From assembly GCF_902170305.1 (NCBI RefSeq), contig NZ_CABHWW010000033.1, positions 62,001 through 126,000 on the forward strand: DNA of 64,000 nucleotides, read 5' to 3'. The notes under the pieces are model-generated. The model ran no database searches. It was not told the origin of the DNA and was given only the letters and a program-made list of their open reading frames with translations. Origin of the DNA: Yersinia alsatica (GTDB lineage: Bacteria; Pseudomonadota; Gammaproteobacteria; Enterobacterales; Enterobacteriaceae). A program made the translations under genes and the position numbers. Positions 42,401 to 64,000 of this stretch are shown one piece after another (position 1 is the first letter of the stretch; each line of letters starts with the position of its first letter).

Positions 42401-43732
42401 TTAAATCTTTGCCGTCGCCAGATACTTTTTCATCTCTTCAGCAGGCACCATCCCACCGCCGGTTGCCCACACCAGATGGGTGGCATTTTGCATTCTCTCA
42501 GCACTAAAGTGATTGCTCTGCAAATAATCGTGACTACCACTAACCCGCGCCGGGCCAGGCATCCCCGCCAGTGCCGAAGGCTCCAACTGAATACCTTCAT
42601 GCCGATTAAGCAAGCCCAGCAAACCATACATTTCGGCATCACTTAAGGTATAGAAGCCGTCCAGCAAACGCTCCATGGCCCGACCAACAAATCCGGATGC
42701 CCGCCCTACCGCCAAGCCATCTGCGGCAGTAATATTATCGATACCAATATCCTGCACAGAAATATCATCATGCAAACCGGTATAGACGCCCAATAACATA
42801 CAAGGTGAATGCGTCGGCTCGGCAAAAATACAGTGGACATGGTCACCAAATGCCAATTTCAAGCCGAAAGCTACACCACCGGGGCCACCGCCCACGCCAC
42901 AAGGGAGATAGACAAACAGTGGATGATTTTCATCGACCAAGATCTGCTGCTCAGCAAACTGCTTTTTCAAGCGGCTGCCCGCCACCGAATAACCGAGGAA
43001 CAAGGTTGGCGAGTTTTCATCGTCAATAAAGAAGCAATTTGGATCAGATTCTGCCTGCTTGCGCCCCTGCGCAACCGCCACGCCATAGTCCTGCTCATAC
43101 TCAACCACATTGACACCGTGCTCGCGCAGTTTGCGTTTTTTCCATTCACGGGCATCCGCGGACATATGCACACTGACACTGAATCCTAACTTGGCACTCA
43201 TAATGCCAATCGACATCCCCAGATTACCGGTGGACCCCACAGCAATGCGGTACTGGCTAAAGAACTGGCGGAAATCATCTGAAAATAGCTGGCTGTAATC
43301 ATCAGTTTCAGTCAGTAACCCGGCTTGTAGCGCCAGTTTTTCCGCATGAGTCAAAACTTCATAAATGCCACCGCGAGCTTTAATCGAACCGGAAATCGGC
43401 AAGTGGCTATCTTTCTTGAGCAGTAAGCGGCCCGTGATTTCAACCCCGTAGCGCTGTTGCAGCACTTGCTGCATCGCCGGGATAGCCACAATATCGGACT
43501 CAATAATGCCCTGTGTTTTTTGTGTTTCAGGGAATGCCTGACACAAATAAGGGGCAAAGCGCAGCAACCGAGCTTCAGCATCAGCAACATCCTGTTGCGT
43601 CAGCCCGACATAAGGCAGCCCTTTTTCAAGGGTGGTCGCCTGCGGGTTAAACCACGTGACTTCCTCCAAATTGATAAGCTTTTTGACCAAAGGGTAGTCG
43701 GTAATTAATTTATCAATTTCAGTGCTTTTCAT
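42401..43732 (-). CDS. dsdA: D-serine ammonia-lyase
   Basis: PLP enzyme that converts D-serine to pyruvate and ammonia, 443 residues (E. coli DsdA has 442). The PLP lysine motif is SGSIKARGG (about 112-120), and the glycine-rich phosphate cup [14 protein letters not shown] is near residue 280. ATG 43732 is chosen over a start seven codons upstream. It lies 17 bp after dsdX in a dsdXA unit divergent from dsdC, the order known from enteric bacteria. Confidence 0.95.
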
Positions 43733-43749
43733 AGAATGTCTCTTTTCGA

Positions 43750-45087
43750 TCATATGATGTAAGAAAGTAGGAAAGTGGTGCCTAATGCAATCACCGACGC
43801 GATAAAGGTCGCGGTGGTGTAATATTTAAATGTCTCACTCAACGTCGCACCGCAATATTGTTTTACCAGCCAGAATAGCGAGTCAGTGACGATGGTGAAA
43901 CCAATAGCACCGGAGCCAATAGCCAGAGTAATAATTTCCGGGCTGACATTGGGGTACATCGGCAATATAGGTGAAACAATGGCGGTTGCTCCCATCATTG
44001 CCACAGTCGCCGAGCCAACCGCAGCATGTAGAATCAGCGCCACCAGCCACGCCAATAGAATGGGGTGCATATCCAGATTAGATAAAATCACCGCCAACGC
44101 ATCCGCCAACCCACTGGCTTTTAATATTCCGTTAAATGCGCCACCAGCACCGATGATCAACAGAATATTGGCAATAGAAGCAAAACTATCTTCGGTTTTC
44201 GCCAGTAGCGTACTCATCCCCATATTTTGCCGGATACCCAGCGTGTAATAGGCAACAAAGGCGGCAATAAACATGGCGGTAATAGGATTACCGATAAACT
44301 CTAAGAGTAAATAGAGACTGGTGCCCTTCTCCATATTCAGTTCTGCGGCGGTTTTTGCCAGCATCAGAATAATCGGCAGCAGCACGGTAAATAAGGTGGC
44401 CCCCAATGACGGCAGCTCATCTTCATTGCGTACTTTAATTTCAGAGAATGCTTGCGGCACGGTTTTAAATGGCAGGCGTTTGCCCACAATACGCAGGAAG
44501 AGTGGCCCGCCAATTAATGATGCCGCCAACCCGACCACCAGCCCGTAAACAATCACTTTGCCAATATCAGCCCCTAATGCATTGGTGACGTACATAGCAG
44601 CCGGATGCGGTGGCACCACGCAGTGGACCGCCATCAAAGCAGTACACAGCGGGATAGCTAACTTCAGCAATGAGGTATTGGTCTTTTTGGCGATGGAAAA
44701 TGCCAATGGAATCAGTAAGACAACCCCCACCTCAACAAACAGAGTGATGCCGCAGATTAACCCGACCAACACCATCGTGACATCCGGTGATAGCCAGCGG
44801 CAGCGTTGTAAGGTAATACCGATGCGCTCTGCGGCACCGGATATTTCCATCATTTTACCTAAAATAGTCCCTAGCCCAATCACTGCGGCTAAAAAGCCCA
44901 GTGTGCCGCCAATTCCGCCTTCAATGGAATTCACCATTTCCAGCGGATTCATGCCCATTAATAACCCGACATAGAAACTCGCTAATAACAGCGCCAGAAA
45001 GGGATGTATTTTTAGTTTTACAATGGTGAAAATAATAATAATGATGCTCGTTAATAACGTCCCCACTACCCATATTTGTGAGTCCAT
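43750..45087 (-). CDS. dsdX: D-serine transporter DsdX (GntP family)
   Basis: GntP-family inner-membrane permease, 445 residues, the same length as E. coli DsdX, from ATG 45087 with AGAGG 6 nt upstream. About 12 membrane segments; family motifs [23 protein letters not shown] and [16 protein letters not shown] are visible. It imports D-serine for dsdA. Confidence 0.92.
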
Positions 45088-45316
45088 AGCCAACCTCTTC
45101 TAATAATAAGTTCTGCCCTCATTGAATAAGAATTGGCCGGTACTGACAAATGATAAAAAATGGCTTTCAGATGAACTGGATTGAACCAAAAGTGCAATAT
45201 TGGTCAAGGTTTTACTATTAACTCAGATTTGCATCACATTAGATAACCCTAATCACTGCTTTGGTGGGTCATTGCGGTATACTATTTCAACAAAAAAGAT
45301 TGCCGGAGAAGCCACC
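45088..45316. promoter_or_regulatory. Divergent dsdX-dsdC promoter region
   Basis: 229 bp between divergent starts, AT-rich, where DsdC would bind to activate dsdXA in response to D-serine. I cannot single out the binding site with confidence. Confidence 0.5.
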
Positions 45317-46258
45317 ATGTACCCAGAAAAAAGCTATATCACCCGCAATAAATTACTGAATGGCTATCAGCTATCGAAACTCTATACCTTCGAAGTTGCT
45401 GCACGACACTGCTCATTTGCACTGGCGGCTGATGAGTTATCTATCAGCCCCAGCGCAGTCAGTCATCGAATTAATAGCCTGGAAGAAGAGTTAGGTTTCA
45501 AACTGTTCCAGCGCTTTCACCGCAAAGTGGAACTCACCGCTGAAGGGGAACGGGTATTTTGGGTGCTGAAATCGTCACTGGAATATCTGAATCAGGAAAT
45601 CCTAGAAATAAAGAATCAGGAACTCTCCGGCACACTGACCCTCTATTCTCGCCCTTCCATTGCCCAGTGCTGGTTAGTCCCGAAACTGGCTGATTTTGCC
45701 CATCACTACCCTGCCATCAGCTTGAATATTCTGACTGGCAATGAAAACGTCAATTTCCAAGGTGGCGGTATTGATTTAGCCATTTATTTTGATGATAAAA
45801 CGCCGGAGAAGCTCTCCTATCAGCACTTAATGGATGAATCTATGGTGCCGGTCTGTAGCCCGGAATATGCCGAAAAACATCAGCTTAATGGCAACCTTAT
45901 CAATTTACGGCAATGTACCTTGCTGCATGACCGCCAAGCCTGGAGTTATGATTCTGATATCAGTGAGTGGAATACCTGGGGCCAGCAAGTGGGTTTTGAT
46001 ATTGACTCCACACAGCGCAGTATGGGTTTCGACCGCTCAGATTTGGCGATTATCGCCGCCATGAATCATGTCGGTGTCGCCATGGGGCGTAAGAAACTGG
46101 TGACCAAACGGCTGGAAAACCAAGAGCTCATCATGCCCTTCCCCAATCTTGAAGTCAGGTGCGAGCAGCGCTATTACATTTCGACCCTGTCAGACCGGCA
46201 GTGGCCAAAGATTAATGCCTTTATTCAGTGGTTAAAAAAGATGGCGGATGAGTCCTAA
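45317..46258 (+). CDS. dsdC: LysR-family activator of the dsd operon
   Basis: LysR-type regulator, 313 residues (E. coli DsdC 311) from ATG 45317, GGAG 7 nt upstream. Winged helix-turn-helix at about 15-75 (FALAADELSISPSAVSHRINSLEEELGFKLF), then the effector domain with GTLTLYSRPSIAQCWLVPKL. It is divergent from dsdXA, the standard layout, and should activate those genes with D-serine. Confidence 0.92.
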   Translation: MYPEKSYITRNKLLNGYQLSKLYTFEVAARHCSFALAADELSISPSAVSHRINSLEEELGFKLFQRFHRKVELTAEGERVFWVLKSSLEYLNQEILEIKNQELSGTLTLYSRPSIAQCWLVPKLADFAHHYPAISLNILTGNENVNFQGGGIDLAIYFDDKTPEKLSYQHLMDESMVPVCSPEYAEKHQLNGNLINLRQCTLLHDRQAWSYDSDISEWNTWGQQVGFDIDSTQRSMGFDRSDLAIIAAMNHVGVAMGRKKLVTKRLENQELIMPFPNLEVRCEQRYYISTLSDRQWPKINAFIQWLKKMADES

Positions 46259-52802: not shown

Positions 52803-53433
52803 CTGATTACCTGCCTTTAGAGTTCATTTCGTTTTCAGTCGGAACAGTGATTGCCTCGCTGATATCTCCTGACTAAATGGCCGCTATCCCTGTGAGCTCA
52901 AATCGTTAATCCCTTATTTTTAATGATGATTTATTCACGCTTAATATTAAAACGACGGATCTTTTAAAATGGAATTACATTTCACTTAACCAGTATTGGA
53001 GATAACTGTCGATTAGTCATTAGGAAATTGGCTGCAAAAAAGACAATAAAGGCAGGGTTTTTTGGGCAAATGCATAAATTATTGTGAGCCCCATCACGAT
53101 GAAATAGGGGAAAAGTGTCCGACATCACAAAATGCGCGGGAGGGGCGTGGGTCACCATCCTTATTCATGCTGCTGCCCAGCGCCAAATTTGCTTTTTTTT
53201 CAATCAATAGACAAAGGCTATCTCAACGATAGGCAAAGCTGCCCCACTAGCTTGATAAAGGTCAACCATCACTCAGCACAGCCCAGAGATAATCCCACTC
53301 AATAAATAAGGTTATTGACAGGATAAAAACCCTATACCCAACATTATTGGCATTGCAGTTCGGTAGCAGCCAATACGAAGGGGATAAATGTGAAAGTGAC
53401 TTATCACTTTCCACACAACAAAGGAGTGCTGCT
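52803..53433. other. Divergent intergenic region upstream of ccp
   Basis: 631 bp without a credible gene. Apart from the FNR promoter near 53252-53300, I see only AT-rich sequence with no repeat or insertion-sequence end. Confidence 0.6.
53252..53300 (+). promoter_or_regulatory. FNR-dependent class II promoter of ccp
   Basis: FNR box TTGATAAAGGTCAA (53252-53265) differs from TTGAT-N4-ATCAA at one base. A -10 GATAAT lies at 53288-53293; the distance from box centre to -10 is exactly that of FNR centred at -41.5, predicting a start near 53300. Confidence 0.75.
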
Positions 53434-54858
53434 GTGATAAGAAAATGGCTAATTGGCGGAGGTATATTAATAGTTGCAGGTTATCTGGGTGTAGCTGGCT
53501 ATATCTACATGACGGATAACGCGCGCAGTAAGGCATTAATCAGCGAGGAAAAACTAATAACCAACGATGCAATCCCCTCTGTGAACAACACCACACTAAC
53601 CAACCAACAAGTCAGTAATTTGTTTTATCAAAAGGGCTGTGATTATTGCCATACAAGCAGTGCATCCCTGCCGTTTTATGCTGTTATTCCGGGCGTGAAG
53701 CAATTAATGGATTACGATATTCAACAAGGCAGTCAATATTTTTCATTGGAACCGACCTTATTGGCTATTAAAGAAAATAGAGCCTTACCAGAGGCTGATT
53801 TAGCTAAAATCGAATCGGCCATTGCCCGCGAACAAATGCCACCACAACGTTTTGAAGTTTTGCACTGGTCTTCTGGCATCAATGCCGAGGAACGTAATCA
53901 AATTCTGGATTGGGTAAAATCACACCGGGCAGAGCATTTCCCTTCAAACAGCAGCAGTGACATGAAGCACCTGACATTGCAGCCTCTGCCGGATGCCCTG
54001 CCAGTAGACAGTAAAAAAGTCGCACTAGGTTCGCGTCTCTTCCACGACCCAAGACTCTCCAGTGATAACACCGTCTCCTGCGCTAGTTGTCATTTGCTAA
54101 CAAAAGGTGGGGTTGATAATCTGGCAACCTCGACTGGGGTTGGCGGTCAGAAAGGCGGAATTAATGCCCCAACAGTCTTCAATGCCGTATTTAATGTTAA
54201 TCAATTCTGGGATGGCCGCGCCGTTGATTTACAACAGCAGGCTGGCGGGCCACCACTTAACCCGGTAGAAATGGCCTCAGCTTCATGGGATGAAATCATT
54301 AATAAGCTGCAACAAGATACTCAGTTGACTCAAGAATTTGTTCAGGTTTATCCGCAAGGTTATTCCGAACAAACAATTACTGATGCCATCGCTGAATTTG
54401 AGAAAACCTTAACCACACCAAATAGTCCTTTTGACCGCTATTTGCGAGGGGATACGAATGCCTTAACTGCCAGTCAGAAAAATGGCTTGGCGTTATTCCA
54501 GAAAAATAAATGCGATACCTGCCACGTCGGTAAAAATCTTGGCGGGCAGTCTTATGATCTGATGGGATTAGCGGGTAATTACTTCGCTGATCGACCAAGA
54601 GAGCTGACTGCTGATGACCATGGGCGTTTTAATGTCACCAAAGATCCCCGTGATATGCACCGCTTTAAAACACCGGGTCTGCGTAATATTGCACTGACAG
54701 CCCCTTATTTCCACGATGCTCAAGCCGAAGATCTAACTCAAGCGGTCGAGATGATGTTGAAATATCAGGTCGGTACTAATCTGCCACCACAGGATGTTCT
54801 AGATATCGTCGCGTTCCTCGAAAGTCTGACCGGGGAATATACGCCTTATAAAGAATAA
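53434..54858 (+). CDS. ccp: Tri-haem cytochrome c peroxidase (YhjA-type)
   Basis: Periplasm-facing, membrane-anchored peroxidase that reduces hydrogen peroxide with quinol- or cytochrome-derived electrons. It has 474 residues from GTG 53434 (AAGGAG 7 nt upstream); upstream in-frame codons lack a site. One N-terminal transmembrane segment (IGGGILIVAGYLGVAGYIY), then three CxxCH haem sites: CDYCH (about 69), CASCH (about 217) and CDTCH (about 362). E. coli YhjA has the same three-haem layout. The FNR promoter fits anaerobic or microaerobic expression. Confidence 0.92.
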   Translation: MIRKWLIGGGILIVAGYLGVAGYIYMTDNARSKALISEEKLITNDAIPSVNNTTLTNQQVSNLFYQKGCDYCHTSSASLPFYAVIPGVKQLMDYDIQQGSQYFSLEPTLLAIKENRALPEADLAKIESAIAREQMPPQRFEVLHWSSGINAEERNQILDWVKSHRAEHFPSNSSSDMKHLTLQPLPDALPVDSKKVALGSRLFHDPRLSSDNTVSCASCHLLTKGGVDNLATSTGVGGQKGGINAPTVFNAVFNVNQFWDGRAVDLQQQAGGPPLNPVEMASASWDEIINKLQQDTQLTQEFVQVYPQGYSEQTITDAIAEFEKTLTTPNSPFDRYLRGDTNALTASQKNGLALFQKNKCDTCHVGKNLGGQSYDLMGLAGNYFADRPRELTADDHGRFNVTKDPRDMHRFKTPGLRNIALTAPYFHDAQAEDLTQAVEMMLKYQVGTNLPPQDVLDIVAFLESLTGEYTPYKE

Positions 54859-55114: not shown

Positions 55115-56278
55115 ATGGATCGCCGTACACTTTTAAAATCATCAGGTTTATTACTGGGTGGATTAACGTTAGGTAGCTTTATTCCTAGTGCTCAGGCAAA
55201 AAACACTAAAATAGCTTCACAAGTACTGATACCCAGCGAGCAGCAACCACTATTACTTAATTTTAATGAAAACTCGTTGGGAATGTCGCCTAAAGCACAT
55301 CAGGCGATTATTGATGCTCTGCCCACCGCATTCCGCTATCCCGATGCAGCCCGCGAAAAATTGATTACCAACATCGCGACAGAATACCAACTTAAAGACG
55401 AAAACATCTCTCTGGGAAATGGCTCTTCAGAGACTATTCAGGCGGTAATTCAGGCAGTTATTCGTCAGGCTGAGCAAGATAATATACCGATTCAACTCGT
55501 GGTACCGGACCCAACGTTTAACTATGCCGAGCTCTACGCCAAACCTTTTGGTATCCCGATAGAGAAAGTGGTTTTAACCCAAGAAATGGCATTCGATCTA
55601 CCGGCAATGCAAAAGAAAGTCGCTGATTTTAATGGCCGTTCGATTGTCTATCTGTGTAATCCTAATAATCCGACAGCCACTATCACCCCATCAAATCTTA
55701 TTGACGACTGGGTTAAAAATGCCACACCGGAAACACTGTTTATTATTGATGAAGCTTATGCCGAATTTGTAAGTGATCCAGCGTTTCGCAGCGCCATTGC
55801 ATTAGTTCAAGCAGGCCACAAGAATCTCTTGGTGACTCGAACATTCTCGAAAATATTCGCGCTGGCGGGCCTAAGGATTGGATATGGTATTGCACATCCG
55901 CAGCTGATCGCAGCAATAGAAAACTTTGTCTCACTGGATAACACCAATACCGCAGGGGCCGTTGCAGCGTTAGCCTCGTTGCAGGATAAACCTTTTGTGA
56001 TACAAAGCCGCCAGTCAGCTGATCTAGCTCGCCGCATAGTGACTCAGGCACTTGACCAATTAAAATTGGCTTATTTACCCTCTCAGGCTAACTTTATCTT
56101 CCACCAAGTGCCCGGAGATGTAAAAACCTACCAAAAACGAATGAAACAATATCATGTCTTTGTTGGGCGTGAATTTCCCCCTGCAGTTGGTTGGAATCGC
56201 CTTACATTAGGGACACCAGAAGAAATGACGGCCTTTGTCTCCGTACTGAGAATGTTCCGGGCTAACGATTGGGTATAA
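55115..56278 (+). CDS. Tat-exported PLP aminotransferase (HisC-like class I/II)
   Basis: Fold-type I aminotransferase of 387 residues with histidinol-phosphate aminotransferase-like features: NENSLGMSP, GNGSSETIQ, YLCNPNNPT, IIDEAYAEF and the PLP lysine at residue 246 (TFSKIFALAGLRIGY). It begins DRRTLLKSSG, a twin-arginine motif, followed by a hydrophobic stretch and AQAK, a Tat signal peptide with likely cleavage near residue 28. Biosynthetic HisC has no signal peptide, so this enzyme should work in the periplasm. It is followed 93 bp later by pheC, whose product makes phenylpyruvate or phenylalanine in the periplasm. Confidence 0.85.
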   Translation: MDRRTLLKSSGLLLGGLTLGSFIPSAQAKNTKIASQVLIPSEQQPLLLNFNENSLGMSPKAHQAIIDALPTAFRYPDAAREKLITNIATEYQLKDENISLGNGSSETIQAVIQAVIRQAEQDNIPIQLVVPDPTFNYAELYAKPFGIPIEKVVLTQEMAFDLPAMQKKVADFNGRSIVYLCNPNNPTATITPSNLIDDWVKNATPETLFIIDEAYAEFVSDPAFRSAIALVQAGHKNLLVTRTFSKIFALAGLRIGYGIAHPQLIAAIENFVSLDNTNTAGAVAALASLQDKPFVIQSRQSADLARRIVTQALDQLKLAYLPSQANFIFHQVPGDVKTYQKRMKQYHVFVGREFPPAVGWNRLTLGTPEEMTAFVSVLRMFRANDWV

Positions 56279-56371
56279 CCGCCATTATTTCGTGTTATTA
56301 ATGGATAAAGGGGAGGCTATTTCCTCCTCAATCACCCTACAAATGCTTTTATAAAAATAACAGGAATAAAA

Positions 56372-57136
56372 ATGAAGAAATTATCTCTGGGCATCATGAT
56401 CGTGGCATTACTCAGCAGCCAACAAGTCTTGGCAAAAAGCTGGCAAGAAATAAAACAGAGCGGGGAATTGCGTATTGGTGTTCCCGGTGACTATGCCCCT
56501 CTGGCATTTCACGATAAGCAAGGGCAACTCGTTGGTTACGATATTGATATGGCAAACTCTTTGGGTGAGAGTCTAAAACTTAAAGTTAATTTTGTGCCAA
56601 GTAGCTGGCCAACACTGTCGGAGGATTTAGCGGCCGACAAATTTGATATTGCCATGGGCGGGGTGACAGAAACGCCTGGCCGTGCCGCGCAATTTGCATT
56701 ATCCAGTCCGGTGGTCAAAAACGGCAAAATTGCCTTAGCCAACTGCCAACAAGCTAAAAAATTCCCCACACTCGATGCTATCGATAATGAAGCAGTGAAA
56801 GTCATTGTGAATCCCGGTGGCACTAACCAATCTTTTGTCGATGCTAATATCAAGAAAGCACAAATCATCCGCACCAAAGATAACGTCGCCAATTTGCAGG
56901 GTGTCCGAGATCAGAGCGCCGATATTATGTTCACTGATTTAATTGAAGGGGATTATTACCAGAGCAAAGAGCCGGGGATATTTTGTGTCGCCACACCGGA
57001 AATATTGCCCGGCACCGGCAGCTATAAAGTGTATATGATGGCAAAAGATAATCAGCCACTTCTTAGCGCAGTTAACCAGTGGTTGAGTGGCGAGACAAAA
57101 TCCACCTTAGCCCACCAGTGGAATATTTCCGAATAG
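56372..57136 (+). CDS. pheC: Periplasmic cyclohexadienyl dehydratase (PheC-like)
   Basis: Solute-binding-protein fold of 254 residues with a Sec signal peptide (cleavage near VLAKS, residue 21). It aligns with Pseudomonas PheC as I recall it at GDYAPLAF, GYDIDMA, SSWPTLSEDLAADKFDIAM, VNPGGTNQSF, DNVANLQ and MFTDLIEGDY, the last including the Glu thought to be the catalytic acid. PheC converts prephenate to phenylpyruvate or arogenate to phenylalanine. No permease or ATPase genes lie nearby, which argues against a plain transport protein. Confidence 0.8.
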   Translation: MKKLSLGIMIVALLSSQQVLAKSWQEIKQSGELRIGVPGDYAPLAFHDKQGQLVGYDIDMANSLGESLKLKVNFVPSSWPTLSEDLAADKFDIAMGGVTETPGRAAQFALSSPVVKNGKIALANCQQAKKFPTLDAIDNEAVKVIVNPGGTNQSFVDANIKKAQIIRTKDNVANLQGVRDQSADIMFTDLIEGDYYQSKEPGIFCVATPEILPGTGSYKVYMMAKDNQPLLSAVNQWLSGETKSTLAHQWNISE

Positions 57137-57232: not shown

Positions 57233-57967
57233 TTAAGCCGTTAATCCGCCATCTAGCACTACTGCCTGCCCCGTCATATAACGGCTATCATTGCCTATCA
57301 TAAAGGCACTGACTCGAGCGACTTCTTGTGCGTCACCTAAACGCCGCAATGGGATCTGCTTACGTAATCCTTTTAAGGCATCGGCAGGCATATTGCGCGT
57401 CATATCACTGTCGATTATCCCCGGCAGCAAGCAGTTTACCCGAATACCAAAGCGGCCCATCTCAAGTGCCAGTGAGCGGCCAAGGCCAATCATTGCCGCC
57501 TTACTGGCCCCATAAGCACTCTGTCCGATATTGCCTTTGATGGCGGTGACCGAAGACATCAGCAACACGGCACCCTCTCCCTGCATCATCATGGGCGGCA
57601 AGAGGTGCTTATTCCAGTAGAAAATGGCATTCAAATTGGTATCCATGACATTACGCCAGTTATCACCATTCTGCTGAATATGTAAGCTATCGCCAGTAAT
57701 GCCAGCATTATGGATAACAGCACCGGGCGGGCCATATTTTTCTAACAATTGTGGGGCCAACGCATCAACATCGGCTTCATTGCTGCCGTCACAACGATAG
57801 CCAGTCACCCGACCGGGTAATCCTTCACAACTTTCGATGACATCGTGACTCTGCTGTTCACCCTGACGCCAGGTAAAAACAACATCCCACTCTTTGGCTA
57901 GCTCTTCAACCAATGCCCGGCCAATGCCACGGCTGCCGCCAGTAATTAACACCCATTGCCTGCTCAT
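57233..57967 (-). CDS. 3-oxoacyl-ACP reductase (FabG-like SDR)
   Basis: Short-chain dehydrogenase of 244 residues. NADPH-binding motif TGGSRGIG (about 9-16), NAGIT (about 87), catalytic Ser in LLMSSVTAIKG and YGASK (Tyr/Lys about 150-154), with the FabG-type ending GQAVVLDGGLTA. It is the last gene of the MacAB-ketosynthase operon, 4 bp after the ACP gene, and would reduce the 3-oxoacyl product of the ketosynthase. Confidence 0.88.
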   Translation of the reverse strand: MSRQWVLITGGSRGIGRALVEELAKEWDVVFTWRQGEQQSHDVIESCEGLPGRVTGYRCDGSNEADVDALAPQLLEKYGPPGAVIHNAGITGDSLHIQQNGDNWRNVMDTNLNAIFYWNKHLLPPMMMQGEGAVLLMSSVTAIKGNIGQSAYGASKAAMIGLGRSLALEMGRFGIRVNCLLPGIIDSDMTRNMPADALKGLRKQIPLRRLGDAQEVARVSAFMIGNDSRYMTGQAVVLDGGLTA

Positions 57968-57971
57968 AATA

Positions 57972-58220
57972 TTACTTCTTCTGCTCAGCCAGCTTCTGAC
58001 AAAGCTCGCCTAAAGTCATGTCCGGGCTTTCCATAAACATTTCGGCATTCAGCGTGGCACCGAATTCGCGTTTTGCCAGCACCATCAATTCAACATAATC
58101 CAGACTGTCGAGTTTTAACTGATGCAGTGGCATTTCAGGTGACAGTGCCGACATTTCCAAGTCTTTGGCGTCACACAACATTTCACATACGGTGTCATAA
58201 ACGTGTTGATACTTTTCCAT
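57972..58220 (-). CDS. Acyl carrier protein
   Basis: Small acidic carrier protein, 82 residues from ATG 58220 (AGGA 7 nt upstream; a longer frame to 58256 is not favoured). The phosphopantetheine attachment serine is in LKLDSLDYVEL (about 36). It differs from housekeeping AcpP (no IGVDSLDTVEL context), so it is a dedicated carrier for this operon. Confidence 0.9.
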   Translation of the reverse strand: MEKYQHVYDTVCEMLCDAKDLEMSALSPEMPLHQLKLDSLDYVELMVLAKREFGATLNAEMFMESPDMTLGELCQKLAEQKK

Positions 58221-58234
58221 GGTCTTATCCTTTT

Positions 58235-59065
58235 TTAATGCGCGGCTAATGGCCACGTTTTTAATGTTACAGCGGTGGTAATTAATGGCCCGATGTCGGT
58301 CCAGGCCTGAATAGCCGAGCGCAATATCCAGCCATCTTCAGTATTGCCGACCACCAGTGTCGGCTCGATGGCATAGTGCAGTGCGCTGCGGACAAATAAA
58401 TTCGGCTGGTTGATGCGCAGTAGATCAGCACTGAAATGCACATCATGATGTGTCTGAATAACTGGCACATGCTTAAAAACATCAATCAAGGTTTCGGCCT
58501 GAATTCCAGGTAACACCTGTTTGGCCGTTGCCAGTGTTTGCGGAGCAGCAACCAACAATTTAAACAGCAGTGCATCGAAAAATGCCCAGCACTCAGCCGG
58601 TTGTGAGGTGTCACCGGGGAATTGCTGGCTGAGTTGATGAACCTCGTTCGCAGACAAAGAACTCCATTGCTCGCAGTCAGTCTGTACCAACGCAGGTGCA
58701 CTGCGTAGCTTGCCGTTAAAGCAACTTTCGCCATTATCACTGTCGAACAAATTGCCACTCACTTGCCCCTGCGCCTGACTCAATTGCAACTGATACGGCG
58801 TATGACATAGCACCGGTTGGCGCAAGCGCGCGTTAAAACGCAGAAAATCCGTGTCGGGCAATGCGGTTAATAACGCAGCACTGAGCTGATATTTAATATC
58901 CAGCATGGCGCGCATTCCGTGGACGGTGAGTTGCTTCTGGCCTAACTGCTGCGCATGTTGCAGATCAAAGTGGATCGGGTTGTAGTCACCAGAAAACTCG
59001 GCCCAACGTTCGGCATCACTGAGGTTGTAGTTGTAATTAAACGACGAGTTAAAAGTCATGGTCAT
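58235..59065 (-). CDS. MaoC-like hydroxyacyl dehydratase with extra C-terminal domain
   Basis: Protein of 276 residues. The N-terminal hot-dog domain has the hydratase motif SGDYNPIHFD with Asp27 and His32 and a QLTVHGM helix. MaoC domains are about 130-150 residues; the remaining C-terminal half (about 150-276) has no motif I recognise and may be a degenerate second hot-dog fold. It likely dehydrates 3-hydroxyacyl-ACP. Start ATGs at 59065 and 59059 are both possible; the first overlaps the ketosynthase stop by 4 bp. Confidence 0.78.
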   Translation of the reverse strand: MTMTFNSSFNYNYNLSDAERWAEFSGDYNPIHFDLQHAQQLGQKQLTVHGMRAMLDIKYQLSAALLTALPDTDFLRFNARLRQPVLCHTPYQLQLSQAQGQVSGNLFDSDNGESCFNGKLRSAPALVQTDCEQWSSLSANEVHQLSQQFPGDTSQPAECWAFFDALLFKLLVAAPQTLATAKQVLPGIQAETLIDVFKHVPVIQTHHDVHFSADLLRINQPNLFVRSALHYAIEPTLVVGNTEDGWILRSAIQAWTDIGPLITTAVTLKTWPLAAH

Positions 59066-60312
59066 TCCAGCCCAATAACCAAGGCGGCATTCGCTCCGCC
59101 AAAACCAAAGCTCAGGTTCAGAGTGTTACGTAATACCGCGGAACGATGCCCTTCGCTGATGTAATCAAGGTCACATTGCGGGTCGGCATTTTTCAGGTTG
59201 CAGGTAGCAGGCATCATCTGATGTTGCAAAGCTTGCAAGCAGATAATGGATTCAAAGCTGCCTGCTGCTGCAATCAAATGACCCGAATAGGATTTGGTGC
59301 TGGATAACGGCGTGGTATAAGCCGCATCACCAAATGCTTGTTTGATGGCTTGAGTTTCATTCAGATCGTTAAGCTGAGTAGAGGTGCCATGCAGGTTAAC
59401 GTAATCAATGTCATCGGCGCTCAACCCTGCCTGCTGCAAGGCATGCTGGATAGTTTTGACGCGAGCGACTTTATCTTCTGCCGGTGCGGTGAAATCAAAG
59501 GCATCGGAGTAGTTACCGTAACCTTTTATCTCGCCAAGGATATGAGCGCCACGGGCAATCGCCCCTTCCCGCTCTTCCAGACACAGCACCGCCGCCCCTT
59601 CAGACAGTACAAAACCATTACGATCTAAACTAAACGGGCAACTGGCTTTGCTGGCATCTTCCTGCTCGCGTGCCAGTGCGCCCAAGATATCGATATTCCA
59701 GACGGCGGCATCACTGCGCAGTGATTCCCCCGCCCCGGCTAGCATCATAGAAGCTCGTCCACTGCGGATGATTTCAAAAGCATCACCAATGGCAATAGTG
59801 CCGGTGGCGCAAGCGGCGATCGGTGAGTTTTGATAACCACGCAATCCCCAATACAAGCTACAAGCTGCTGTCCCGGCATTCGGCATCGACAGGAAACAGC
59901 CGAAAGGTGTGCCCAGCCCGGTTTCTAAATAACCTTCATAGTTATCATGGGTTTCATCCTGACCCGCCCAGCCACTGCCGATGATGGTGCCGCAATCGAG
60001 TAAATCGTAATACTCCGCCGGAGATTTCTCGGCAAATGCCATCGCCATGGCTTCTCGTGCAGCAGCCAGCGCTAATCGGGCATAGCGCGGCAGGCGGCGG
60101 CGTATCGCGGCAGGTACCGCTTTCAAATTAGGTTCCGCATCAAGCAGGCCAAAAAATCGCGATTTAATGCCCTGCTCGGATTTATCGTAATAACGGTAAC
60201 CTAATTGGTAATCCATAATGGCCGCCCAACTCTGCTGCGCGGTCATGCCCATTGGGGTCACACTGCCATAACCGGTTACTACAACCCGGCGCTGCTTAAC
60301 GGTATTTGTCAT
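59062..60312 (-). CDS. Beta-ketoacyl-ACP synthase (FabF/FabB-like)
   Basis: Ketosynthase of 416 residues with an intact Cys-His-His set: Cys in AACATGTIA (about 169), His in NLHGTST (about 306) and His in KSYSGHLIAAAG (about 342). The opening RRVVVTGYGSVTPMG is FabF-like. It would condense malonyl-ACP with an acyl primer. It overlaps the outer-membrane-protein gene by 4 bp, an unusual coupling of acyl synthesis and export. Confidence 0.88.
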   Translation of the reverse strand: MTNTVKQRRVVVTGYGSVTPMGMTAQQSWAAIMDYQLGYRYYDKSEQGIKSRFFGLLDAEPNLKAVPAAIRRRLPRYARLALAAAREAMAMAFAEKSPAEYYDLLDCGTIIGSGWAGQDETHDNYEGYLETGLGTPFGCFLSMPNAGTAACSLYWGLRGYQNSPIAACATGTIAIGDAFEIIRSGRASMMLAGAGESLRSDAAVWNIDILGALAREQEDASKASCPFSLDRNGFVLSEGAAVLCLEEREGAIARGAHILGEIKGYGNYSDAFDFTAPAEDKVARVKTIQHALQQAGLSADDIDYVNLHGTSTQLNDLNETQAIKQAFGDAAYTTPLSSTKSYSGHLIAAAGSFESIICLQALQHQMMPATCNLKNADPQCDLDYISEGHRSAVLRNTLNLSFGFGGANAALVIGLE

Positions 60313-61706
60313 GATTTAATTCCTTTACTGTCCCTGCTGTTATCCACACCGCCGCCTAAGGCTAGCCATAATTTCATGGTGGCATTCAGGTAGTTATATT
60401 GAAATTCGAGCAAACTGGTTTCACTGGTCAGCAGAGCGTCCTGCGCATCCAATAAGGTCTGAAATGAGACGGCACCTGCCTGATATTGGCTGTTAGCCAA
60501 GCTCAGCCGACGTTGGCTGAGTTGCAGGTTCTGCCACTGATTCTGTTTTTGTTGCTGATAACTCAGCCGTTGGGTCATTGCGTCATCAACATCTTTCAGT
60601 GCGCTGTAGACCTTGCTGCGAAAATCGACTGCCGCCAATTGCACCTCCAGCTTTGACTGGTCAATGGTGAGCTGCACGGTATTCCACTGTAAGAAAGGCA
60701 GTGCGCTGTTAACACTCAGTGTCCGGCTTGGGTTGCTGAACCATTGTGAAAATACCGAGCTACCGGCATCCAGCGTGGCGCCCAATGAAAGTGTCGGGTA
60801 GAAATTCAGTTTGGCGACATCCGAACCGGCTAATGCCGCACGTAAACGCCACTCGGCCGCCTGTACATCGGGGCGCTGGGCAATCACCTGTAATGGCAGA
60901 CTTGTGGCGATCGGCACCTGTTGTTGTAAATCCAATGACTGGCGCTCGGTCTGACGATAATCGGGCGCGCGGTTAAACAGCAATGCCATGGCATTGCGTG
61001 CGGCCTCCCGCTGCTGCTCAAGACTGTGATACTGATTTTGACGATCCAGTAATGTCTGTTGCGCCTGTAATAGCTCGATTTCACCAGCATCACCCGCCGC
61101 CATACGCGAGCTCACGATTTTGAGGGTATCTTGCGCAATAGCCACCGCCGCCTGCTGGTAGCCCAACTGTTGATTGAATTTAGCAATCTGCCAGTAGAGA
61201 TCCGCCGTGGTGCCAATCAATGAAAGTGCCGTTTCCTGCCGATCTTGCTCGGTTGCATTGACTAGCCAAGCCGATTGCTCACGGGCACGGGCTAATTTAC
61301 CCCACAGATCCAGCTCGTAGCTCAAGCCGAATGAGGTGCTGTAGTTTTCTCGCGGCTGAGTATTTTCATGCAATGACCGAGTATTGCTGCCAGTACCCGT
61401 CAATGTGACCTCGGGATGCAAATTAGTATTCGTCAGCCCCGCCGTTAGGCGCGCCTGCTGCAATTTCAGCCCCGCAGTCGCGAGGTCATTATTGCTGATC
61501 AACATGCGGCTGATGTTTTCTGACAGTTGCGGGTCATCGAAATTTTCCCACCAGTGCACACTGTGGTGTAGGTAGCCGCCGCCGCTATCTTTGACTCGCC
61601 ACTCATCAGGCACTGACAACATTGGCCGCTGATAATCACTTTTCAGTAAAGAGCCGCAACCGGTCAGCAGCAGAGTGAGAATCCCGGCATTAATTAATTT
61701 CATCAT
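60309..61706 (-). CDS. Outer membrane efflux lipoprotein (NodT/TolC family)
   Basis: TolC-like channel of 465 residues with a lipoprotein signal (TLLLTGCGS, lipid Cys at about 17). Two OEP repeats, with long alpha-helical stretches such as NDLATAGLKLQQARLTAGL and LLQAQQTLLDRQNQYHSLEQQ. It forms the outer-membrane exit for the MacAB-type pump encoded just upstream (4-bp overlap). Confidence 0.9.
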   Translation of the reverse strand: MMKLINAGILTLLLTGCGSLLKSDYQRPMLSVPDEWRVKDSGGGYLHHSVHWWENFDDPQLSENISRMLISNNDLATAGLKLQQARLTAGLTNTNLHPEVTLTGTGSNTRSLHENTQPRENYSTSFGLSYELDLWGKLARAREQSAWLVNATEQDRQETALSLIGTTADLYWQIAKFNQQLGYQQAAVAIAQDTLKIVSSRMAAGDAGEIELLQAQQTLLDRQNQYHSLEQQREAARNAMALLFNRAPDYRQTERQSLDLQQQVPIATSLPLQVIAQRPDVQAAEWRLRAALAGSDVAKLNFYPTLSLGATLDAGSSVFSQWFSNPSRTLSVNSALPFLQWNTVQLTIDQSKLEVQLAAVDFRSKVYSALKDVDDAMTQRLSYQQQKQNQWQNLQLSQRRLSLANSQYQAGAVSFQTLLDAQDALLTSETSLLEFQYNYLNATMKLWLALGGGVDNSRDSKGIKS

Positions 61707-63679
61707 TCTCGTGCCAGCGCCTCGGTTGGATGCAAACGAGCAGCATTGCGCGCCGGGAAAAAGCCAAATCCCAACCCGATAAGCGCGGAGAAACTACAGG
61801 CCAACACTAACGGCGGCCAAGTGAAAATTAGGGTAAAGGTCTGGGTAACCCAAGAGAAAATCACCCCAGCCAGTGCGGAACCAACAATGCCAATCAAGCC
61901 GCCGAGGGTGCAGATGACCACCGCCTCAATCAGGAACTGAAGCATGATGTCGCTCGGACGTGCGCCCACAGAGAGACGAATCCCAATTTCATGGGTGCGC
62001 TCAGTCACCGACACCAGCATGATATTCATCACGCCCACCCCGCCCACCAGCAGAGAAATAGCGGCAATAGAGGTGATCAGCAGTGTCATGGAGTCAGATG
62101 TTTTCTGAATCGCTTTGCTCATCTGGTCATTACTCAGAATGAAAAAGTCCCGCTGACCGTGGGCTTGCTCCAGCAGCTTCTCGACATCTTGTTGCACGTC
62201 ATTCAGCGAATAGCCTTCACGAACCCGCACCGAGATTGACTCCAGCGGGATATCGCCCGAAATCCGCTCGGTCAGCGAGGTATAAGGCATCCAGGCAGCT
62301 AATAAGCCACCGAATGATGAACTGCTCCTCTTGGCAACACCTATAACGCGCAGTGGGATGCCATCTAACTGCACAATGGCGCCAATCGGATTTTCTCCGG
62401 CAGCAAACAGAGTATCGCTGAGCTCAGGTTGCAGAATGACCACCGGCTCACGGGCATTCACATGACTCTGGGTAAAACCCTCCCCGGCCATAAAATTCAG
62501 CCCTTTGACCTGAAAGAAGCCGTCACTGACGCCAGAGAGCGCCACCATCACTTGTTTTTCACCCCGCACCGCAGCCACCATTTTGCTCACTACCGGCGAC
62601 AAGCTATCGACATAGGGTTGATGGCGAAGCAGCTCAACATCTGCTTGTGAAAGTGCGCGTTCAAAATCAGGGCGCGGTTTATCCCAGCCCAGCCCTGGGC
62701 GAACATCCAGATTACTGGTACCCAGTTGGCTGATTTCATTTAGGATTTCCTGACGAGCGCCTTCTCCCACCGCCATGGAGGACACCACGGAAGAGATGCC
62801 GATAATAATGCCGAGCATGGATAAAAAAGCCCGAATGCGGTGCCCAAGCAGGGAGCGCCAGGCCATTTTTATCGCCTCTCTGACACTCAACCACCAGTGG
62901 GGGCGGCCGGTGGCAACCGTGGTCGGCAGCGCCGCATTAACTATTGCAGCACCGGTTGCCTCATTATTGCGATCAGAGATAATTTCACCGTCACTGATCT
63001 CGATAATACGCTGCGCCTGATTAGCAATATTGCGGTCATGGGTCACGATGATAATGGTGTGGCCGGACTGATGCAGGCCGTGCAAAATCCCCATCAGTTC
63101 CTGCCCACTGGCGCGATCGAGCGCACCGGTCGGCTCATCGGCCAAAATAATACCGGCACCATTCATCAGAGCACGGGCGATACTCACCCGCTGCTGTTGC
63201 CCACCGGAGAGTTGCGCCGGTTTGTGCAACAAATGCTGACCCAGACCTAAACGACGCAGCAAATAAGTGGCACGTTCCTGACGCTCGGCGGTGCTCATCG
63301 CGGTGTAAAGTGCCGGGATAACCACATTCTCGGTCGCCGTTAAGTACGGCATTAAGTGGTAGCGCTGAAAAATAAAACCGATGTACTGGCTGCGTAATTG
63401 TGCCAGTTGCTCGCTGCTGGCCTGCCGCGTCGGGATGTTATGAATCGACATTTCACCCTGCGTCGGCTTATCCAGACAGCCGATAATGTTCATCAGTGTT
63501 GATTTACCGGAGCCAGAAGCACCAATAATCGCCACCATTTCGCCGCGATGAATCGACAATGAGATATTCTTGAGTACCGCAACCGACGCGCTACCTGACG
63601 AGAAATGGCGATAGATTCCATCGAGTTGGATCAACGGGGCACGGTTAGCGTCATCACGATGAACAGTATTAATGTCCAT
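61703..63679 (-). CDS. macB: MacB-like ABC exporter (ATPase-permease)
   Basis: Single-chain MacB of 658 residues: N-terminal ATPase with GASGSGKST (about 53-61), [16 protein letters not shown] and [12 protein letters not shown], then a transmembrane helix (about 283-305), a large periplasmic domain, and three C-terminal helices including [24 protein letters not shown]. MacAB-TolC pumps export macrolides, toxins, siderophores or lipids from the periplasm. Here it shares an operon with acyl-synthesis genes, so a lipid-like or polyketide-like cargo is likely. MacA is translated from the overlapping upstream gene. Confidence 0.9.
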
Positions 63680-64000
63680 TATTCACTCCCGACGGCACAC
63701 CGATCAGTGCAACCTGCTCACCCTGCTCTAGCCCCTCTTTTACTTCAGCATATTGACCATCACGCAGGCCAATAGCGACCCAGCGCTCGGCAGTCTGTTG
63801 GCCTTTGATGACTTGAACTCGATAGCGTTTGTCGGCTTTGGGGTCTAAAGCCGATTGCTGTTCACCTAAAGCAGACAGTGGCACGCGCAGCACATTTTTA
63901 GCCTGTGCAGTAATGATGAAGACCTGCGCCGTCATTGAGGTGCGCAATAGCCGCTCATGGTTGGCAATGCTAAAGAGGCCGTTGTAATAAACTGCGGAAG
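63669..64000 (-). CDS. macA: MacA-like periplasmic adaptor (partial, runs off the right edge)
   Basis: C-terminal about 110 residues of a membrane-fusion protein; the frame is open to the window edge and the start lies beyond it. Typical MacA C-terminal sequence: FYYNGLFSI, LLRTSMTAQVFIITAQAKNVLRVPLSAL and VTGLRDGQYAEV-like GLRDGQYAEVKEGLEQGEQV. It overlaps macB by 11 bp and is the most 5' gene of the operon seen here. Confidence 0.85.
   Translation of the reverse strand, partial: SAVYYNGLFSIANHERLLRTSMTAQVFIITAQAKNVLRVPLSALGEQQSALDPKADKRYRVQVIKGQQTAERWVAIGLRDGQYAEVKEGLEQGEQVALIGVPSGVNNGH

Follow-up and report, generated by a model that had tools for sequence, protein, structure and literature searches.

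A predicted Tat-exported aminotransferase beside a secreted PheC: probably two separately acting periplasmic enzymes in a variable locus

Jensen's hidden overflow pathway is a periplasmic route to phenylalanine. Two of its proposed parts, exported chorismate mutase and PheC, came to light decades ago, yet there is still no agreement on what they do. In the stretch of DNA analyzed here (64,000 nucleotides, hereafter the window), a gene for a HisC-like aminotransferase (AT) stands directly ahead of a gene for PheC, and an earlier note on the sequence had suggested that the pair supplies the transaminase and dehydratase of this route. Does it? We estimate a probability of about 60% for a different answer, namely that these are two separately acting periplasmic enzymes in a variable locus: a genuine PheC and a PtaA-like orphan AT whose substrate is probably not aromatic. 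The question matters because a 2023 paper, in its available part, goes no further than a "maybe even" on the production of an exported aromatic aminotransferase by P. aeruginosa (PMC10520331). Our literature search found no gene for such an enzyme, with most subscription papers outside its coverage. Three predicted exported enzymes encoded in one genome, with gene coordinates, make the route idea directly testable.

The dehydratase and the aminotransferase

Both reading frames are uninterrupted on the + strand, and they lie at the coordinates of the earlier note. The second (56372..57136, 254 aa) encodes a secreted PheC whose residues mark it as a genuine cyclohexadienyl dehydratase, with the activity predicted from those residues. 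Its best PDB matches were cyclohexadienyl dehydratases, including ancestral reconstructions (5jos, E 3e-58; 6wup, E 6e-58; 3kbr, E 4e-46). All nine active-site residues that the available part of PMC10520331 gives for PaCDT, the enzyme of P. aeruginosa, were present (Y41, W79, K119, N147, T151, N152, N171, T188, and E192), and they were complete in 19/19 aligned close PheC rows, 7 of them from the window's genus; our family draw had 19 genomes with PheC, and this alignment leaves out five of them (G023, G173, G183, G214, and G262). The description of a secreted PheC-like protein with dehydratase motifs thus held up, and the catalytic Glu, whose loss had been named in advance as the result that would speak against it, is present as Glu192, the equivalent of Glu173 in PaCDT. 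The N-terminus was Sec-type as judged by eye, and one of the two disulfide cysteines aligned, with the other one residue off in the alignment. PaCDT (3kbr) shares with the window's PheC these nine residues and its export (PMC10520331, available in part), but it is a distant homolog and forms a separate, long branch in an unrooted tree.

The same tree placed PaCDT between the PheC group and a more distant PheC-like group in the family (31-39% identity), which formed its own branch. Matches in this range (32 of 51 genomes, 11 aligned) were not counted as PheC. The proteins of loci L073-L083 (34-39% identity) retained 8/9 dehydratase residues and carried Pro at the Asn128 column in 11/11 aligned sequences; this group possibly has a different activity.

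The first gene (55115..56278, + strand, 387 aa) encodes AT, a predicted Tat-exported HisC/PtaA-like PLP aminotransferase with PLP Lys246 and the Arg pair R352/R362. It matched Pfam Aminotran_1_2 (E 6e-43), and its best PDB match was 3ly1, a "putative histidinol-phosphate aminotransferase" (E 9e-94). The next was 4r2n, the M. tuberculosis aromatic transaminase Rv3772 (E 6e-36), which is also the nearest PDB relative with published aromatic activity (PMC4703992, available in part). Among NCBIfam models, PRK09105 (NF006580) gave the best match and covered the signal region as well, yet AT scored below its curated cut-off (251.4 vs 444 bits), as it did for the HisC equivalog TIGR01141 (231.4 vs 276.55 bits) and the PtaA model NF051461 (207.3 vs 500 bits, E 3e-61), and 10/10 further relatives scanned likewise fell under all three cut-offs. 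We therefore treat AT as a member of what appears to be an unnamed subfamily. The term HisC-like is correct for fold and family, but we rejected HisC itself as the identity of AT because the equivalog score is not reached.

Relatives of 52-66% identity came from Proteus, Providencia, Morganella, Edwardsiella, Limnobaculum, Citrobacter, Ursidibacter, Helicobacter, and Psychrobacter. No characterization of this set of Tat-signal transaminases appeared in our literature search, whose coverage left out most subscription papers. In plasmid records, the two best matches (60%) were 4-Mb Proteus records and the best plasmid-sized match reached 41% (Serratia), while the best match in phage records had only 32% identity. 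Three alphaproteobacterial contigs (L204, L212, and L213, two of them Emcibacteraceae) carried at least 3 to 5 AT-like genes in tandem.

The AT N-terminus (MDRRTLLKSSGLLLGGLTLG...AQA) carries the twin-arginine motif DRRTLLK at residues 2-8 (55118..55138, + strand) and satisfies a TATFIND-like rule, on which the predicted signal is based. The rule singled out AT among the 59 ORFs of the window; of the 776 non-AT ORFs at other loci, a single one satisfied it. It was also satisfied by 24/30 AT rows; in 2 of the others the uncharged stretch was one residue too short, and 4 were start-cut. Twin arginines were present in 22 of the 23 aligned AT sequences (the alignment took in 23 of the 30 collected), and the remaining row was start-cut, with RR one residue upstream. 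The start MDRRTLLKSS occurred in 20/26 close rows and variants of it in the other six. The window's genome also encodes TatC. The claim of a HisC-like PLP enzyme with a twin-arginine signal is therefore borne out by the Aminotran_1_2 match, the motif, and the rule, and Tat export is upheld as a sequence prediction.

A conserved pocket and the likely substrate

The catalytic Lys246 and the Arg352/Arg362 pair, which correspond to the PLP Lys and Arg-switch pair of I-beta aromatic aminotransferases, were invariant in 23/23 aligned AT rows. In the M. tuberculosis enzymes the alpha-carboxylate as well as the dicarboxylate partner is held by this arginine pair (PMC4703992, available in part), and AT keeps it. 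AT thus shares with Rv3772 the subfamily I-beta fold, the PLP Lys, the Arg-switch pair, and a Phe on PLP. It differs at 3/4 positions of the hydrophobic pocket and in its predicted signal, as the available part of PMC4703992 does not mention a signal peptide for Rv3772.

The same source, as far as available, distinguishes the M. tuberculosis aromatic enzyme from HisC at four pocket positions, V86/F110/L112/F246 in the former and N103/Y127/M129/Y261 in the latter (PMC4703992). The AT equivalents, S105/F135/Y137/D275, were invariant in 19/19 close rows. By these rules, which derive from one enzyme pair and are read off an alignment that is gap-free against 4r2n from Lys246 to Asp275, AT is aromatic-like at 1/4 positions (F135) and HisC-like at 0/4, so the hydrophobic tetrad of the I-beta aromatic aminotransferase mArAT is absent. 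Phe135 should stack on PLP, and at this position AT resembles the aromatic transaminase, as HisC has Tyr. Ser105 alone says little because the Val86 position is polar in other homologs aligned in the available part of PMC4703992, and the sequence argument for a non-aromatic pocket is carried by Tyr137 and above all by Asp275. A group of AT relatives with 42-46% identity differs at F135, Y137, and D275.

These residues are weak evidence that AT may be a transaminase that depends on glutamate and whose side-chain pocket is conserved yet not of the aromatic type. Because the pocket is invariant, polar, and acidic, neither phenylalanine nor phenylpyruvate is likely to be the main substrate. Our guess is a polar or cationic amino acid, either free or within a secreted metabolite. 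The constancy of the pocket in 19 aligned close rows, together with the breadth of the relatives, would point to a recurring, uncharacterized periplasmic transamination.

Under our preferred reading of two separately acting enzymes, PheC would convert prephenate or arogenate to phenylpyruvate or phenylalanine in the periplasm. AT would fold with PLP in the cytoplasm and be exported by Tat through the signal observed. Once in the periplasm, it would transaminate an amino acid or 2-oxo acid, probably paired with glutamate/2-oxoglutarate since the arginine pair is conserved. AT would then represent a sporadic orphan subfamily with an invariant polar pocket, to which the adjacent protomer is expected, from the equivalent residues, to contribute Asp275, and it would act in the manner of PtaA, a periplasmic transaminase that pseudomonads export by Tat. 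Three observations stand against this reading: Phe135, a raw co-occurrence of AT and PheC above expectation, and adjacency in the same order in seven genomes of the window's genus.

PtaA is also the basis of the alternative that fared best, in which AT tailors a secreted small molecule, a siderophore or similar, in the periplasm. PtaA of Pseudomonas fluorescens resembles AT as a PLP transaminase with a Tat signal and acts in the periplasm; in pseudomonads it is exported through Tat with its PLP and transaminates pyoverdine there, and it also occurs in species without pyoverdine, hence its general name (PMC6206403, available in part). The Tat-type signal expected of PtaA (NF051461) is found in AT by the motif rule, and the PtaA model covers most of AT. 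However, AT lies far under the cut-off of that model, and no recurring pathway or biosynthetic neighbor was seen beside AT across lineages, where most neighbors are unannotated. As far as sequence tells, AT is PtaA-like in location and chemistry but not a PtaA member by score, and we consider tailoring of a secreted molecule possible though rather unlikely. The family draw held eight different AT locus contexts, with neighbors including BamD-, Mfd-, and UvrB-like genes (by eye), and AT looks like an orphan gene.

Do AT, PheC, and AroQ travel together?

The other alternative of substance is the one from which we started, that secreted AroQ, PheC, and AT form a periplasmic chorismate-to-phenylalanine pathway in which AT is the missing transaminase. 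In its favor, all three genes and TatC occur in the window's genome. A profile search found three AroQ-type chorismate mutase domains there. Two are near each other, in reading frames some 390 residues long, and by length and place we infer these to be PheA and TyrA. The third belongs to a 179-residue ORF elsewhere in the genome that scored 130 bits against a cut-off of 74 with the AroQ gamma-class model and has a secretion-type start by eye. Exported CM-CDT fusion enzymes resemble this set in joining an exported chorismate mutase to dehydratase chemistry, but in the window's genome the activities are on separate genes and are accompanied by a predicted exported transaminase; the role of the fusion enzymes is also disputed (PMC10520331, available in part). 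Also in favor of the route is that 4r2n is the nearest PDB relative with published aromatic activity. The pocket, aromatic-like at a single position, speaks against it.

We then compared gene distributions. Among 25 genomes of the window's genus, 9 had an intact AT and 1 a partial one, 16 had PheC, and 7 had both, leaving AT alone in 2 and PheC alone in 9 (Fisher p 0.26). In all 7 genomes with both intact genes, the two were adjacent and in the same order, which also speaks for the route. Among the loci examined, this adjacency was confined to the genus, so we rejected the idea of an AT-PheC operon conserved beyond it. Neither PheC nor AroQ was found (E 1e-6) in the fetched flanks of 105 AT loci outside the genus, a set in which some genomes appear twice and some flanks end at contig ends.

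Across 246 family genomes, AT (23 genomes) and PheC (19 genomes) occurred together in 9 vs 1.8 expected (Fisher p 6e-6), using identity cut-offs of 58% for AT and 59% for PheC that were chosen after a gap was visible in the match lists, and in a draw rich in reduced symbiont genomes, which inflates co-occurrence. Counted by genus, the overlap was 6/154 vs 1.0 expected (p 7e-5). This raw co-occurrence favors a link between the two genes. Counted by AT locus lineage, as grouped by eye from flanking genes, the overlap was 3/8 (binomial p 0.02-0.06), or 2/7 without the window's genus (p 0.10-0.20). Of the 8 genomes with both genes besides the window's, 5 had them separated by 206-304 kb and 3 had them on different contigs. 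Four genera (g12, g54, g68, and g151) shared one common AT locus, and the five of their genomes with fetched PheC flanks shared one PheC locus. Their five PheC sequences also formed one supported tree branch, and AT and PheC in these genera therefore look like one inheritance. In a class-wide draw of 350 genomes, AT (E 1e-70) and PheC (E 1e-45) were found only in the window's own genome.

Secreted AroQ fitted less well. It accompanied AT in 2 of the 23 AT genomes vs 4.4 expected, a shortfall that is not significant (p 0.14), and accompanied PheC in 5 vs 3.6 expected in the family draw. The pair had been expected to co-occur with secreted AroQ across genomes; all three were indeed found in the window's genome and in an Edwardsiella genome (G157), but in just these 2 of 246. 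PheC was also absent at E 1e-30 from 24 of 29 searched genomes drawn from 80 named AT loci, with the other five comprising three that had PheC of at least 56% identity (Edwardsiella, Limnobaculum, and Gilliamella) and two that had weak matches (35-37%). Joint inheritance of secreted AroQ, PheC, and AT was thus not seen, either in the AT-AroQ counts or in the 105 loci outside the genus, with the AT-PheC count as the contrary observation.

Taken together, the proposal that the pair supplies both activities survives for the dehydratase. For AT as the aromatic transaminase it is not supported, given the 3/4 pocket differences, adjacency (among the loci examined) in one genus where each gene also occurs alone, the AT genomes without PheC, and no enrichment with AroQ. 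That phenylalanine is made entirely outside the cytoplasm is possible, though support for such a full route is poor, and we regard AT as its missing transaminase as unlikely. The narrower version, in which the locus gives the window's genus and Edwardsiella the long-missing periplasmic aromatic transaminase and so completes the route from chorismate with secreted AroQ and PheC, the polar, acidic pocket being broad in specificity or suited to prephenate/arogenate, strikes us as doubtful to the same degree. Finally, the histidinol-phosphate transaminase names borne by AT relatives would suit a cytoplasmic HisC paralog whose N-terminus is no signal, but the aligned homologs carry a twin-arginine, hydrophobic start ahead of their catalytic domain and the HisC cut-off is missed, making this very improbable indeed.

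A variable slot and its neighbors

The 93-bp gap between AT and PheC (56279..56371, + strand) contains a hairpin with a 7-bp stem and a 6-nt loop. Hairpins of differing sequence also occurred in 2 other adjacent AT-PheC gaps examined (of 6 others), and whole-gap z values for the three were -1.36, -2.45, and -2.22. No terminator-like site was found on the + strand of the AT-PheC gap, and the promoter/terminator scan performed near chance.

Upstream of AT, profile matches identified a MauG/MbnH-like di-heme protein with an extra heme-binding domain (53347..54858, + strand). Within the window's genus its gene is found both in genomes that have AT and in genomes that lack it; it is a neighbor in a variable slot, not a proven AT partner. 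The slot lies between a fatty-acid-like cluster (from 57233) and a racemase-like gene, and across genomes it also holds differing combinations with the di-heme gene or a gene that by eye is autotransporter-like. GC content was 44.7-46.0% for AT, PheC, and the di-heme gene and 51-54% for the five flanking genes measured (three downstream and two upstream). From these gene mixes and the lower GC, we therefore read the slot as a variable island.

The downstream cluster (57233-63947, - strand) comprises a ketoreductase, an acyl carrier protein, a MaoC-like protein, a ketosynthase, an outer-membrane efflux protein, a MacB-type ABC exporter, and a MacA-like fragment (by eye), and it looks like a source of a small exported fatty-acid/polyketide-type product. 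We considered this SDR/ketosynthase/MacAB cluster as an AT partner and rejected it: it was present in 7/8 other fetched loci of the genus, with AT in 4 and without it in 3, and AT is located elsewhere in other genera.

The autotransporter-like ORF, recognized by eye, spans 617-791 aa (for example, L115:9782-12157, - strand). In L115, L128, and L129 it precedes PheC in the position that AT has in the window, being split in two ORFs in the last, and in L017 it lies upstream of AT. Elsewhere in the window (42401-46258), family matches marked a LysR regulator, a GntP permease, and a PALP enzyme, which we take to resemble the D-serine dsdC-dsdX-dsdA set.
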